Part shown: positions 8,061-21,878 of the stretch, piece after piece | Layout of the letters: each line of letters starts with the position of its first letter | How positions within the stretch are numbered: the first letter of the stretch is position 1 | Source: a virus | IMG/VR virus record: IMGVR_UViG_3300044970_000021 | Location: 1-24,116 of that record | Strand: one strand, 5' to 3' | DNA: 24,116 bases | Notes under the pieces: model-generated | What the model saw: only the letters and a program-made list of their open reading frames with translations | The model's database searches: none | Told to the model about the DNA's origin: nothing | Translations under genes and position numbers: made by a program

Positions 8061-8214
8061 TTTCGGCCTCCATTACTGCTTGGGTTTGGTCAATTACCGG
8101 AGGTAAATCCGGCTCTACGATTTCAGGTTCAATAACTAATACACATCCCTCAGGCACTTCCTCACACCGAGCAAGCGCACCGTTGGGGAACATAACTAAA
8201 GGTTTGCGTGTCAT
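8041..8214 (-). CDS. 57-aa acidic protein of unknown function
   Basis: The frame from the ATG at 8214 to the TGA at 8041 encodes 57 residues beginning MTRKPLVMFPNGALARCEEV and continuing with an acidic, Pro- and Val-rich part (VIEPEIVEPDLPPVIDQTQ). The ATG overlaps the TGA of the glycine-rich fibre gene by four bases (ATGA), a standard coupled junction, and the far end overlaps the next gene by 20 bases. It fills an otherwise empty 150-base gap in a tightly packed operon. No membrane segment or domain is evident. It could be a fibre-assembly helper because of the coupling, but this is a guess. Confidence 0.62.
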   Translation of the reverse strand: MTRKPLVMFPNGALARCEEVPEGCVLVIEPEIVEPDLPPVIDQTQAVMEAESGNNNA

Positions 8215-9104
8215 GCTGTAAATGTTCCAGATGATGTGAATGTATGATAGGTATAGCCACCGGAGGATGTAACAGTACCGCCAGTGCCTTTTTGTGAGCC
8301 AAGATAACGAATAATAGCGATGCCTGAACCACCGCTGCCGCCGCTAACAGTAGAAGCATTTACACCACCACCACCACCTCCGCCGCCTGTGTTAGGAGTA
8401 GCATTAGACGGTGTTCCAGTAGAAGTACCGGCTGACCCGCCGCCGCTGCCACCTGAGCCACCGGGATAAGTGCCGTCGTAACCAGTACCAGCGCCGCCGC
8501 CACCGCCAGCATAAAAAGTCCCAAGGGATTTCCAATTTATTCCATTACCACCATTTCCGCCACCAGATGTTGTTCCAACAGAACCTGCGGCTCCTGCACC
8601 GCCGCCACCGCCCGCGCCATAACCGGGAGCAGCACCCCCTCCCGCATGGTTTCCACCAGCGTTACCTTGCCCAGCAGTACCTGCTCCTCCAAGTCCGGCA
8701 TAAGCGCTGCCGCCGCCTGAACCACCGCTGGCCCCATTTGTTGTATTGTTATATGACCCGCCGCGCCCACCGCCAATTGCGGTTTGAGAAAACAAAGAAC
8801 TATTTGTCCCATTAACAGCATCTGAAGAACCTGCAACAGTACCAGCACCGCCGCCGCCAATAGTAACAGTATAAGCAGTCCCAACAACAGCGGTTGCAGA
8901 AGAATCTATAGCACCTCCTGCACCGCCGCCGCCGCCATTTCCTACAAGCGATGATGAAGTTGAACCTCCACCGCCACCACCTCCGGCAACTATGAGATAC
9001 TCAACAGAATAAGTTTGGAGCGGCCATTCGCCACCGCGTAATGCGTTACGGACTTCGTTTAATTTCCAAATTCCGTCCGCAGAAGATGTAGAAGGATGTG
9101 GCAT
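8211..9104 (-). CDS. glycine-rich tail fibre / adhesin
   Basis: This 297-aa protein starts at an ATG overlapping the upstream stop (TAATG) with GAGGAG upstream. The first ~35 residues (SSADGIWKLNEVRNALRGGEWP) match a short N-terminal module I recall at the head of phage fibre proteins. From residue 37 (VEYLIVAGGGGGGG) to about 265, long glycine tracts alternate with short Ser/Thr/Asn loops and occasional aromatic residues. The end (GIAIIRYLG...GYTYHTFTSSGTFTA) is a beta-strand cap. Such proteins are known as polyglycine-type adhesins; phage S16 gp38 packs glycine-rich strands as polyglycine II helices and displays variable loops at the tip. A receptor-binding role is therefore likely. Confidence 0.75.
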   Translation of the reverse strand: MPHPSTSSADGIWKLNEVRNALRGGEWPLQTYSVEYLIVAGGGGGGGSTSSSLVGNGGGGGAGGAIDSSATAVVGTAYTVTIGGGGAGTVAGSSDAVNGTNSSLFSQTAIGGGRGGSYNNTTNGASGGSGGGSAYAGLGGAGTAGQGNAGGNHAGGGAAPGYGAGGGGGAGAAGSVGTTSGGGNGGNGINWKSLGTFYAGGGGGAGTGYDGTYPGGSGGSGGGSAGTSTGTPSNATPNTGGGGGGGGVNASTVSGGSGGSGIAIIRYLGSQKGTGGTVTSSGGYTYHTFTSSGTFTA

Positions 9105-11920: not shown

Positions 11921-13540
11921 TTATAGGATCGGGGTTTGGTTAAAGTAGTAACCACCAACAGTGCGATCACTCGCATCAGTATAGTGGAAGTTTACAACTA
12001 ATCCAGCGCCGCTGGTATCAGCGTAAGTGATAAATTCACCGCCAACTAACGGGGCAGTGAGTAGTAGTCCGGGGCCATTGATAAGGCCAGTGTAATTCTC
12101 ATGTGTATGACTATCGCTAGAACTCTGCATGTAATCAGAGTTAAACATTCCATTACCTAACACTTCTGTATAGTCAGGTACGTTTGTCGTGTAGCGATGA
12201 AACACAAAGCCGTTGCCATCCGCCATCGACACGTAGTCAGGGTAGATTGGCGTGGTTTGCCCAAGGATTAGTATGGTTGAGATCGACTCAGCCATCGTGA
12301 CAGAATCAGTCAGTACCTTGGAAATTGCAAATAAATTTAGAACATCCGTTGCTGTCGCTGTATCGGTCAGCCCTTTGCCAACTGTAAATGTGTTGATGGC
12401 ATCGGTTGGAGTAGATATAGAATCAGTCAGAACCTTAGCAGGGCTGAAGGCCATAGCCTCAGAAGCCGTAACCGAGTCAGTCAATACCTTACTCACTGAA
12501 GCCACAACAGCATCAGAACCAGTCACAGAATCTGCTAGGTCTGGTTTAGTAACACTCTTAGCAGCCGCATCCGTAGCAGACACCGAGTCACTACGGGTAG
12601 TATCTAGGCTGAACGCCTGTGCATCCGCCATCGAAACGGGGTCTGGGTCAGCGTCAGCATCGGTAACGTCATAGTCAAACGCATAGCCGGGAGTCTTAGC
12701 CACGAACTCAGTCATCGTGACTGAATCGGTTAGGACTTTATCGACCGAGATAGTATTGATTGCATCTGCAATCGTTGCCGAATCACTAGGGTTTTTACCT
12801 ATATTGAATGGCCCAAATGCGTCGGAGGCTGTAACTGTCTCTGTCTTAACCAGTTCAGGTGAGCGGAAGGAAGTATCTGTTGCGGTAACAGTCTCGGCAA
12901 TATTACCTTTTGTTACGTCAAGCGCTGCTGCTTCCGTAGCCGACACACTATCAGCAACAACTTTACCTGTGTTAAATTGATTGATCGTGTCCGCCGCGGC
13001 CGTCGCGTCAGTCAAACTCTTGCCAACATCTTTGGTGTTGATTGTTTCAGATGCGGTAACTGCGTCTGACGAGGCTTGCCCAATATCTTTGACATTTACA
13101 TCAGACGCAGTAAGCGTTTCTGTTAGGGTTTTCCCTATGCCCTTTACATCCGCATCGGCTATGTTGATTGGGTCTGGGTCAACATCTGGGTCAGATGGGT
13201 CAAAGTCTACCGTACCACTAAATATCTTGACGCTGTTCTCAACAATAGCCACCGAGTCAACAGCAGTAGCCGTAATATCAAACGCTACGTTATTGACATC
13301 CGTTGCAGTAACTACATCAATGAGGACTTTGTTAATGTCAAAGACTCGGAAATCAGCCATCGTTACAGTCTGTTCTTCCAAGTACTCCATTGGCACAACA
13401 AACGCCGAGACTGCAATAACTTGGTTAGGCTGGGCTGAAACTGTGGTCGAGTATGTGCTTACGCCAGCAGATACCGTAGCCGCCGCTGGGGTGGCTAATA
13501 GTACTGACGATAGCGCGTAAGCGACTCGAATGTTTGCCAT
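11921..13540 (-). CDS. tandem-repeat virion protein (LTDSVTxTD repeats)
   Basis: This 539-aa protein's ATG overlaps the upstream stop (TAATG). From about residue 55 to 425 it is built of some sixteen to eighteen degenerate units of 17-20 residues with consensus GK-LTDSVTATDA---F (for example SKVLTDSVTASEAMAF and VGKGLTDTATATDVLNLF). Each unit could form one coil of a beta-solenoid or a thin shaft. An acidic Asp-Pro block (DPDPINIADADV at about 121-132; DPDPVSMADAQAF at about 298-310) occurs twice and splits the array. The C-terminal ~110 residues are not repetitive and contain HTHENYTGLINGPG and a Tyr-rich end, a possible tip domain. The first 25 residues look slightly like a signal peptide, which is probably chance. 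I recall similar repeat proteins in uncultured aquatic phages. Likely an elongated appendage. Confidence 0.68.
   Translation of the reverse strand: MANIRVAYALSSVLLATPAAATVSAGVSTYSTTVSAQPNQVIAVSAFVVPMEYLEEQTVTMADFRVFDINKVLIDVVTATDVNNVAFDITATAVDSVAIVENSVKIFSGTVDFDPSDPDVDPDPINIADADVKGIGKTLTETLTASDVNVKDIGQASSDAVTASETINTKDVGKSLTDATAAADTINQFNTGKVVADSVSATEAAALDVTKGNIAETVTATDTSFRSPELVKTETVTASDAFGPFNIGKNPSDSATIADAINTISVDKVLTDSVTMTEFVAKTPGYAFDYDVTDADADPDPVSMADAQAFSLDTTRSDSVSATDAAAKSVTKPDLADSVTGSDAVVASVSKVLTDSVTASEAMAFSPAKVLTDSISTPTDAINTFTVGKGLTDTATATDVLNLFAISKVLTDSVTMAESISTILILGQTTPIYPDYVSMADGNGFVFHRYTTNVPDYTEVLGNGMFNSDYMQSSSDSHTHENYTGLINGPGLLLTAPLVGGEFITYADTSGAGLVVNFHYTDASDRTVGGYYFNQTPIL
12270..13375. 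repeat. degenerate ~54-bp coding repeat array
   Basis: The DNA under the repeat protein shows recurring plus-strand phrases such as GTCAGTA/AACCTT, GCATCHGTAACNGAGTC and their variants every 51 to 60 bases, plus two GGGTCTGGGTCA blocks near 12640 and 13170. Synonymous and non-synonymous changes are scattered, so the copies are old rather than a recent slippage event. Confidence 0.7.
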
Positions 13541-16120: not shown

Positions 16121-16402
16121 TTAGTCCCGAACTAAAATGGTTACCGAAGTAGCCCCACCAATATCACAATAGATACCAGTGGAGAATATCATTCCACCTT
16201 CGGGGATACCAAAGGCTACAACCCCTTGTTTCGTAGTATCAAGTTCTAACTTGACAGGGCCTGTTGCAGTAAGACCATCGTAAAGTTTAATGTGGTCTAA
16301 ATTTCCTCCGCTAGAGGTATATAAGAAACCCAGCATCCGAATTTGTCCGGTATAGAGTACAGCATCGTTATTTGTATGTATCGAAGTAACGTCACGGGCC
16401 AT
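16121..16402 (-). CDS. 93-aa beta-rich structural protein
   Basis: The ATG has the strongest ribosome site of the region (AAGGAGG, seven bases upstream), partly locked in an inverted repeat described separately. The protein (VLYTGQIRMLGFLYTSSGGNLDHIKLYDG, GVVAFGIPEGGMIFSTGIYCDIGGATSVTILVRD) is a compact beta-sandwich in appearance, like small capsid-associated or spike proteins. It follows the probable decoration gene. No named family recognised. Confidence 0.62.
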   Translation of the reverse strand: MARDVTSIHTNNDAVLYTGQIRMLGFLYTSSGGNLDHIKLYDGLTATGPVKLELDTTKQGVVAFGIPEGGMIFSTGIYCDIGGATSVTILVRD

Positions 16403-16409
16403 AATAAAA

Positions 16410-16439
16410 CCTCCTTAAAAGGAGGGGGCCGAAGCCCCC
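16410..16439 (-). promoter_or_regulatory. overlapping hairpins: UUCG hairpin plus inverted repeat that contains the ribosome site
   Basis: In the minus-strand transcript a GGGGGC-UUCG-GCCCCC hairpin (16424-16439) is followed at once by CCTCCTTTTAAGGAGG (16410-16425). The second half of that repeat is the Shine-Dalgarno sequence of the 93-aa gene. The two structures share two C residues, so forming one weakens the other. The UUCG hairpin lacks a clean U-tract, so it is a poor terminator; it could shield the 3' end of the decoration-gene message or gate translation. Confidence 0.65.
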
Positions 16440-16453
16440 ATCCTTACCTGCGT

Positions 16454-16927
16454 TTAGTTAACGTCTGTAAAAGTTGCAAAGAGACGCACAACAGCAGCGG
16501 CTGGTACAGCAGTACCAATCGTGATGTCGATAGTATCAGCAGCAGAGTACAGTTTGCCACCACTCAAAGTGGGAGCAAAAGCACCAGCCGACAGGACTGG
16601 AACACCACCTGAGAAACCGGTAGAGTTAGCGGTAGTAGCAGCCAAATAACCAGTAGCGGCAGAGCCGTCACCGATTGCAATGGTGCTAGTTACACCAGCA
16701 GCAGTCGTAACTTCCATACCTACGTTAGACACAATAGTGCCAGCGGGTACAGGAATTACTTCCAGAACGTCAGATGCAGCAAGAGCGGTTGCACTAGCAG
16801 CAGAACGCGCAGCAATGATCTTGGGAAAATCAAGAACCATTTCCACACGGACGGACTTGTTAAGGTCATTTGCCGGGTAAGCGGCTGTGCCTTTGTTAAA
16901 ACCGAGAGAGTCGGTATATGTTGCCAT
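16454..16927 (-). CDS. probable capsid decoration / minor head protein
   Basis: This 157-aa protein has an ATG with AGGAG eight bases upstream and is flanked by two copies of the same UUCG hairpin. The N-terminus (MATYTDSLGFNKGTAAYPANDLNKSVRVEMVLDFPKIIAAR) is followed by repeated short strands rich in Ala, Thr and Gly (VIPVPAGTIVSNVGMEVTTAAGVTSTIAIGDGS, TIDITIGTAVPAAAVVRLFATF). Such a beta-rich protein directly after the major capsid gene is often a decoration or head-stabilising protein. Position and composition support this; no motif proves it. Confidence 0.62.
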   Translation of the reverse strand: MATYTDSLGFNKGTAAYPANDLNKSVRVEMVLDFPKIIAARSAASATALAASDVLEVIPVPAGTIVSNVGMEVTTAAGVTSTIAIGDGSAATGYLAATTANSTGFSGGVPVLSAGAFAPTLSGGKLYSAADTIDITIGTAVPAAAVVRLFATFTDVN

Positions 16928-16939
16928 GTTAATTCTCCT

Positions 16940-16970
16940 AAAAAAGTTACGAGAGGGGGCCGAAGCCCCC
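16940..16970 (-). terminator. UUCG hairpin with delayed U-tract after the major capsid gene
   Basis: The minus-strand transcript contains GGGGGC-UUCG-GCCCCC (16955-16970), then a nine-base gap and UUUUUU (16940-16945). Stem and loop are identical to those at 16424-16439. The gap makes full termination unlikely; partial termination or protection of the abundant capsid message against 3' exonucleases fits better. Confidence 0.6.
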
Positions 16971-16976
16971 CGTCAA

Positions 16977-17882
16977 TTACAGAGTAATGATACCTTGTGA
17001 CAATGCCTCAGGCTTGACCACTTTGTATCCATACACTTGTAGACCACGGATGATGTTACCGAAGGTGGACTCAGAGCGAATGGTTTCCATGTTGGTCATT
17101 TGCGAAGCAAAAGTGAAGCCCATCTTGTGACCAGCGATGATGCTGAACTTGCCGCTGGAAACACTGAGGTTGTGGCTCATGTAAACCGTAAAACGGTCGA
17201 TCATGCCAAGGCGACCATTACGAAGAATGGACACGCTGTCACCAGTCAAAGAAGCATCCTTAAGGTCAGACTTCTTAATCATACCGGCCATCTTGGCAGG
17301 GATAACTACGAAGCGGTTACCTTCTGGGCAGTTTGCCTCATCAAGAACAGTACCGATGTCAACAAGGTACTCCAACACGTTGGTCTTGGTAATAGCGATA
17401 GGCGAACCAGTCGTACCCAAGTCAATGTTGTTAGAGATGCGACCAGCGGTTGCACCTTTGTTGTCAGCAGAAATGTCCGGCAGAATGTCGGTCAAAACAC
17501 GTTGGTCAATCTTGATCTTCATACGCTCAGAAGCGTCTTTTGACCAAGTATCCATCAGATTGATGTCCGACTGAACCTTATCCACATCGTCCTCAACGCA
17601 AGCGAAGTACTCGCCTTTGTCGATAACAAGTTGCAGTTTAGGTTTGTCAGGATTCTCAACCGACAAAGTTTGACCTTTTACATAGGTCTTGATGGTGATC
17701 TCAGGGGTAGTACGGATGTTAACCGTGTCGCCCATGTTACGAATTTCACCTTCGTAATCAGTGTTGGAAATAGCAGCCAACACAGTTGCGTCGTAGAAAT
17801 TCTCGATTAATTTACCTGACCAAATCTCAGGAATGAAGTTACCCGAATAGTTCGGGCGGCCTGTGGAAACGGGAAATCCCAT
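16977..17882 (-). CDS. major capsid protein
   Basis: This 301-aa protein starts at an ATG with GAGGAG seven bases upstream, one of the strongest sites in the window. The N-terminus (YSGNFIPEIWSGKLIENFYDATVLAAISNTDYEGEIRNMGDTVNIRTTPEITIKTYVKGQ) is the opening seen in HK97-fold coat proteins of P22-like (gp5-type) phages, with an E-loop-like region and a beta-rich P-domain afterwards. Residues about 150-230 hold the A-domain pattern (NVLEYLVDIGTVLDEANCP-NRFVVIPAKMAGMIKKSDLKDA). The last segment (GFTFASQMTNMETIRSESTFGNIIRGLQVYGYKVVKPEAL) is characteristic. At 301 aa it is much shorter than P22 coat (430 aa), so the insertion domain is probably missing. The gene follows the scaffold gene, the usual order. 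Confidence 0.88.
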   Translation of the reverse strand: MGFPVSTGRPNYSGNFIPEIWSGKLIENFYDATVLAAISNTDYEGEIRNMGDTVNIRTTPEITIKTYVKGQTLSVENPDKPKLQLVIDKGEYFACVEDDVDKVQSDINLMDTWSKDASERMKIKIDQRVLTDILPDISADNKGATAGRISNNIDLGTTGSPIAITKTNVLEYLVDIGTVLDEANCPEGNRFVVIPAKMAGMIKKSDLKDASLTGDSVSILRNGRLGMIDRFTVYMSHNLSVSSGKFSIIAGHKMGFTFASQMTNMETIRSESTFGNIIRGLQVYGYKVVKPEALSQGIITL

Positions 17883-21732: not shown

Positions 21733-21758
21733 CCGCACTACTACATATTGTAGTGTGG
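21733..21758. promoter_or_regulatory. inverted repeat over the start of the structural transcript
   Basis: CCGCACTAC and GTAGTGTGG form arms with eight of nine positions matched (one G-T) around an 8-base centre. One arm touches the -10 box and the other reaches into the leader, so the dyad spans the predicted +1. It could be an operator for a repressor, or a weak 5' hairpin; only part of it would be transcribed. Confidence 0.5.
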
Positions 21759-21786
21759 TTATAGCAGCAAGTATACATGCTGTCAA
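21758..21786 (-). promoter_or_regulatory. strong sigma70-type promoter for the head/tail genes
   Basis: On the minus strand TTGACA (21781-21786) and TATAAC (21758-21763) are separated by 17 bases, with TGC just before the -10 (extended -10). Predicted start is near 21751. It lies directly after the terminator of the packaging unit. Confidence 0.85.
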
Positions 21787-21819
21787 AGAAAAAAGAACCC
21801 CCTACGTTTCCGCAGGGGG
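21787..21819 (-). terminator. rho-independent terminator after terL
   Basis: The minus-strand transcript forms CCCCCTGCG-GAAA-CGTAGGGGG (nine pairs, one G-U, GNRA loop; 21798-21819) followed immediately by TTCTTTTTTC. This is a textbook intrinsic terminator and ends the terS-terL transcript about 60 bases after the terL stop. Confidence 0.9.
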
Positions 21820-21842
21820 CAAGAGGCGTGAAGGAGAACGCC

Positions 21843-21852
21843 AAGGAGGTGA
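21843..21852. other. perfect Shine-Dalgarno / anti-Shine-Dalgarno element in the terL 3' region
   Basis: The plus strand reads AAGGAGGTGA and, 13 bases before it, AAGGAG. In the minus-strand transcript this becomes CACCTCCTT and CTCCTT, a copy of the 16S rRNA 3' tail. No convincing plus-strand gene follows (the GTG frame gives 26 residues). Meaning is unclear. Confidence 0.4.
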
Positions 21853-21878
21853 AACTGCATCCTACTATATCACACATT

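Follow-up and report, generated by a model that had tools for sequence, protein, structure and literature searches.

Two identical hairpins flank the cement gene

The window, a 24,116-nt stretch spanning positions 1 to 24,116 of the IMG/VR virus record IMGVR_UViG_3300044970_000021, carries its head genes on the minus strand, and all features below lie on that strand. The major capsid protein (MCP) gene (16977-17882, 301 aa) matches the phrog_267 major head protein with an E value of 1.9e-58. It is followed by a 157-aa gene (gene 2, 16454-16927) with the Shine-Dalgarno (SD) sequence AGGAGA at 16934-16939, and then by a 93-aa gene (16121-16402) that has a weak match to phrog_28102, a family of unknown function. 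Gene 2 gave no PHROG or Pfam match, and tblastn against the phage collection found no relative of it. An AlphaFold2 model of its product, built from 23 sequences (pLDDT 80.5), was compared with PDB structures in Foldseek; the best matches were chain J of the Ralstonia phage GP4 capsid, the KHP30 capsid, the Pam1 capsid and the KHP40 cement protein, in the order 8h89_J (E 2.9e-4), 7dn2, 7eel and 7dou. The predicted fold and the position of the gene next to the MCP gene are those of the GP4/KHP30/Pam1-type cement proteins. The model supports assignment of the gene 2 product as a cement or decoration protein, the label that an earlier note made from the sequence alone had given it. The GP4 virion contains 540 MCP and 540 cement copies (PMC9698820). 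Elsewhere in the window, a 539-aa protein (11921-13540) consists of repeated TDSVTASDA-like units and has no match in Pfam, and a glycine-rich 297-aa protein (8211-9104) matches Pfam Gly_rich_2.

The stem-loop GGGGGC-UUCG-GCCCCC occurs on both sides of the cement gene. H1 (16955-16970) lies 6 nt 3' of the MCP stop codon and H2 (16424-16439) lies 14 nt 3' of the cement stop codon, both on the mRNA strand, and their exact identity reaches 18 nt. Coordinates and match confirm that identical UUCG hairpins follow the MCP gene and the gene after it, as the earlier note had proposed. The 16-mer is present twice in the whole window against 0.02 copies expected from shuffles. Only H1, H2 and the terminator after terL are strong coding-strand hairpins situated clearly between genes in the window; two more strong matches, near 1000-1150, sit within an ORF that continues beyond the window edge. 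H1 and H2 have a C(UUCG)G loop on a stem, are intergenic and read on the coding strand, and both belong to the intercistronic CUUCGG hairpins. An Rfam search at the two sites returned nothing convincing. We dropped a mini-ORF within H2 (ATGGGGGC...TAA), which relatives do not preserve.

H1 and H2 are conserved and covary among close relatives

The close set contained 82 sequences, the window included, with MCPs 82-100% identical. H2 was found in 82/82 and H1 in 74/82, being absent from the other 8; the loss of both hairpins from close relatives that the earlier note had seen as fatal to its proposal did not occur. Loops interchange in these relatives among UUCG, UUUG, UACG, UCCG, GCAA, CUUG and others. 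When a MAFFT alignment of 39 H1 regions was folded, RNAalifold returned exactly the H1 stem, which was 96.3% paired and in which four of the seven pairs had changed on both sides; none of 500 shuffles reached its covariation score. Stable loops (UNCG, GNRA, CUUG) were present in the sense reading of 82 of 109 distinct hairpins with four-base loops, drawn from five sets, and in the antisense reading of one. Because the stems covary and stable tetraloops appear on the sense strand only, selection most likely acts on the RNA, that is, on the mRNA. The rank of the 40-nt minimum free energy was weak in the window's own clade (median p 0.079), and we therefore relied on covariation there.

Fifteen longer relatives (26-55 kb) have UUCG hairpins of this kind clustered at the H1 and H2 sites and few elsewhere. 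The L071 record (G007) has three consecutive UUCG hairpins in its head region, not two (16171-16184, 16779-16792 and 17294-17307). Inside one genome, the cores of H1 and H2 matched at 0.25, compared with 0.24 by permutation. Near the MCP-cement junction, L024, L026 and L030 combine a capsid of one type with a cement start that is the same as in the window's lineage, placing a recombination joint near H1.

A stem-loop marks the capsid-unit end in distant clades

For three distant MCPs, those of roseophage CRP-3, pelagiphage HTVC104P and Rhizobium phage RHph_TM3_14A, we retrieved 80 loci apiece. Downstream of the MCP stop, the best 40-nt fold averaged -20.9 kcal/mol against -9.9 elsewhere in the CRP-3 clade, -19.1 against -7.3 in the HTVC104P clade and -22.9 against -13.4 in the RHph_TM3_14A clade. 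In all three, this region ranks with the most stable folds that the locus has. Stability peaks between 0 and +100 nt from the MCP stop; in the window's clade stability peaks again near +500, 3' of the cement gene. The CRP-3 alignment (A2) was too gapped and was left out of the covariation evidence. For the HTVC104P clade RNAalifold alone gave only 3 pairs; the named 12-pair helix scored above shuffles for covariation and for paired cells, but its numbers of pairs and of types did not exceed theirs.

In the HTVC033P clade, a homologue of the cement protein was recognized by BLASTP (3e-8) and hhalign (probability 98%). Among the 65 distinct loci with cement in this clade, the hairpin follows the cement gene in 62 and stands between MCP and cement in one; two of the three loci lacking a post-cement hairpin run off the contig edge. 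L394, which has no recognized cement gene next to its MCP gene, carries GGGGGGA-GCAA-TCCCCCC directly after the MCP. From these two observations, the hairpin sits at the 3' boundary of the capsid unit: it stands after the MCP gene if no cement gene follows, and otherwise after the cement gene. Four distant capsid clades have a stem-loop at the matching place with a different sequence, and since the stem sequences differ between clades, structure and place are what is kept.

H1 and H2 generally lack a terminator U-tract

A canonical intrinsic terminator with the tail TCTTTTTT follows terL (21797-21820) and offers a contrast within the same DNA. In the window the classical terminator score is -8.4 for H1 and -4.3 for H2. 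Medians were -8.5 for H1, +8.5 for H2, -6.5 for CRP-3, -4.2 for TM3 and -19.0 for HTVC104P; scores were positive for 29% of H1, 61% of H2 and 14% of HTVC104P-type hairpins in the relatives, and 49% of CRP-3-type tails had at least 5 T of 8. The H2 tail is pyrimidine-rich. The terL terminators of the same phages have clear long U-tracts and score up to +45.6; for 4 of 11 terL segments the wrong hairpin was scored, giving negative values, and the U-tracts are visible in the sequences. Neither hairpin of the window pairs a GC stem with an immediate U-tract, and across relatives H2 is borderline. Given these scores and the U-tracted terL terminators of the same phages, H1 probably does not act as a normal terminator and H2 is a borderline case. 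A stable, conserved hairpin without a U-tract at the end of the gene to be protected is the form of an mRNA decay terminator, with the U-tract caveat applying to part of H2.

A candidate sigma-70 promoter of the head operon, TTGACA-17-TATAAC (21758-21786), was recognized by its consensus match; it is located immediately downstream of the terL terminator, some 3.9 kb upstream of the MCP start, and is only partly conserved. A candidate promoter so far away would suit an operon whose output needs post-transcriptional adjustment. A search for a T7-like RNA polymerase gave no match, and its controls were equally silent. The genome-contig search for a host returned just four MAG contigs, none pointing clearly to a host.

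Two other elements were observed in this interval. Just after terL, at 21782-21858, an sRNA-like element combines a CCTCC-type motif, a small hairpin and a U-tract terminator; it also occurs in L337, L346 and L348, and at the same place in several relatives Rfam gives weak matches, below its cutoff, to suhB/mmgR, anti-hemB and Betaproteobacteria toxic sRNA. Possibly the phage encodes an sRNA here that carries an anti-SD motif. A CTACAATATGTAGTAG-like palindrome at about 21735-21760, between the promoter candidate and the first gene, has similar counterparts in L337, L338, L340, L342 and L344 and is possibly an operator or a -10 element.

The inverted repeat beside H2 is mostly a local detail

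The 3' arm of H2 is fused to an inverted repeat (16410-16425), in which CCTCCT (16425-16420) can pair with AGGAGG (16415-16410), the SD sequence of the 93-aa gene starting at 16402. The two stems compete for the same C residues, CC at 16425-16424 being common to the H2 3' arm and CCTCCT. Both features had been pointed out in the earlier note. A further pairing that it overlooked joins AAGGA (arm 1, 16445-16441) to UCCUU (arm 2, 16423-16419); arm 2 can pair with either arm 1 or the SD (arm 3), and in the minimum-energy fold its pairing with arm 1 lengthens H2 and competes against the SD hairpin. The earlier note had further claimed that the repeat hides the ribosome site and had suggested RNA folding as a check. 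The repeat exists, but when the local region is folded to minimum energy the SD hairpin is missing. Openness of this SD is predicted at 0.59 in a short context and at 0.21 with 60 nt upstream and 30 nt downstream folded, so single values carry little weight; it lies within the spread of the window's genes (mean 0.39) and is not unusually closed. With arm 1 blocked, openness in the short context falls from 0.59 to 0.07, and the SD-closing and arm 1 pairing energies are slightly stronger than in shuffles. Among the 59 distinct H2 sequences of relatives, about 5% show such switch-like pairing, and H2 is kept though the gene 3' of it usually differs. A conserved SD switch was therefore rejected as a general function, and the SD-hiding part is mostly a local detail without broad support.

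Discussion

We consider it fairly likely that H1 and H2 act as intercistronic 3'-end barriers to mRNA decay on the head-operon mRNA. The transcript would start at an upstream promoter, be cut or ended downstream and then be trimmed by 3'-to-5' exonucleases, which would halt at the tetraloop-capped GC hairpin just past a stop codon. Stable capsid (H1) and capsid-cement (H2) messages would remain while the portion encoding the downstream low-copy proteins decays. H2 would be the conserved mark at which the capsid unit ends, and H1 an optional extra step between capsid and cement. Some partial transcription termination is also possible, since the H2 tail is pyrimidine-rich and its score is positive in most relatives. 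Exonuclease blocking and the setting of protein ratios, which the earlier note had suggested, give the best fit to conserved, covarying hairpins that have stable tetraloops, mostly lack a U-tract and stand at the capsid-unit end in five clades; the exonuclease stop, the mRNA stabilization and the effect on protein ratios are what we infer from this pattern.

A somewhat unlikely reading is that H1 and H2 are leaky intrinsic or NusA-assisted terminators, at which RNA polymerase would partly stop so that transcription steps down after each capsid gene. A GC stem with a UUCG loop is a common terminator form, and the positive median of the H2 tails and the T content of the CRP-3-type tails favor this reading; against it are H1 and the HTVC104P-type tails with their missing U-tract, the negative scores of both window hairpins and the long U-tracts that the same genomes place after terL. 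It is quite improbable that the exclusive pairings of arm 1, arm 2 and the SD form a translational switch, in which a ribosome terminating on the cement gene would free arm 2, close the SD of the 93-aa gene and lower its translation. The predicted closing of that SD when arm 1 is blocked, and pairing energies slightly above those of shuffles, would suit a switch, but such behavior is confined to a small minority of H2 sequences, the openness of the SD is within the range of the window's other genes, and H2 stays while the downstream gene is often unrelated.

The mosaic nature of the cement and downstream genes, and the combination in L024 and L026 of one capsid type with another's cement start, would agree with a role of H1 and H2 as recombination linkers, in which short stretches shared between modules would favor the shuffling of genes. 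We nevertheless hold this to be very improbable: the two cores of a genome resemble each other only to the degree that permutation gives, stem sequences are unrelated between clades, and covariation with sense-only tetraloops argues for selection on RNA. A protein-binding operator, at which for example the capsid or cement protein would bind the hairpin and repress its own message, recalls the coat operators of RNA phages, where a stem-loop stands beside structural genes. It is extremely improbable here, the loop and stem sequences varying freely between relatives, unlike a specific binding site.

Several known systems come close to H1 and H2. In phage T7, T-phi is a terminator hairpin with a U-tract that follows gene 10. 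Like H1 it stands after the major capsid gene, but T-phi terminates transcription with its U-tract, unlike H1. Alternative pairings around a ribosome site link the window to SD-sequestering hairpins and translational attenuators, but here they are not conserved among relatives. CUUCGG hairpins in intergenic regions of T4 and other phages have been known since 1988 (Tuerk et al. 1988, as cited in PMC8948821); as described there, the T4 hairpins have the same (X)nCUUCGG(Y)n form, between genes and on the mRNA, whereas the type described here is fixed at the capsid-unit end across clades and often has stable loops other than UUCG. Protective hairpins without a U-tract are known in E. coli operons, menBCE having two in a row as H1 and H2 are (PMC5927463), and intercistronic mRNA decay terminators are also cited for puf of Rhodobacter capsulatus and malEFG (malEF) (PMC5927463 and its references). 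By analogy, H1 and H2 resemble these in placing a stable hairpin without a U-tract between a high-copy and a low-copy gene, but here the setting is a phage head operon and the decay effect is a proposed one. Most decay-terminator hairpins of E. coli lie inside the downstream coding region (PMC5927463), unlike H1 and H2. Our literature search found no description of hairpins of the H1/H2 type, and the main text of the HMO-2011-type paper mentions neither hairpins nor terminators. Intercistronic CUUCGG hairpins are thus an old theme from T4; the papers that could be searched describe neither such deep conservation nor the rule on the capsid unit.

How one operon yields many capsid and few connector and tail proteins is usually explained by promoters and terminators. 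In relatives of abundant uncultured, SAR11 and Roseobacter phages, a covarying RNA hairpin is maintained precisely at the capsid-unit boundary. This provides a sequence mark for the end of the unit and makes decay-based stoichiometry testable in cultured phages such as HTVC033P, HTVC104P and CRP-3. Only tentatively do we extend this to a general role for the stable-tetraloop hairpin at the capsid-unit 3' end. Phages with capsids of this family would then continually maintain it as a punctuation mark, and mRNA decay, not promoters or terminators, would bring output down from hundreds of copies for capsid and cement to a few for tail and connector. Across a large group of phages from water and soil, this very stable hairpin is probably an end-guard that allows the capsid genes far higher amounts than their neighbors.
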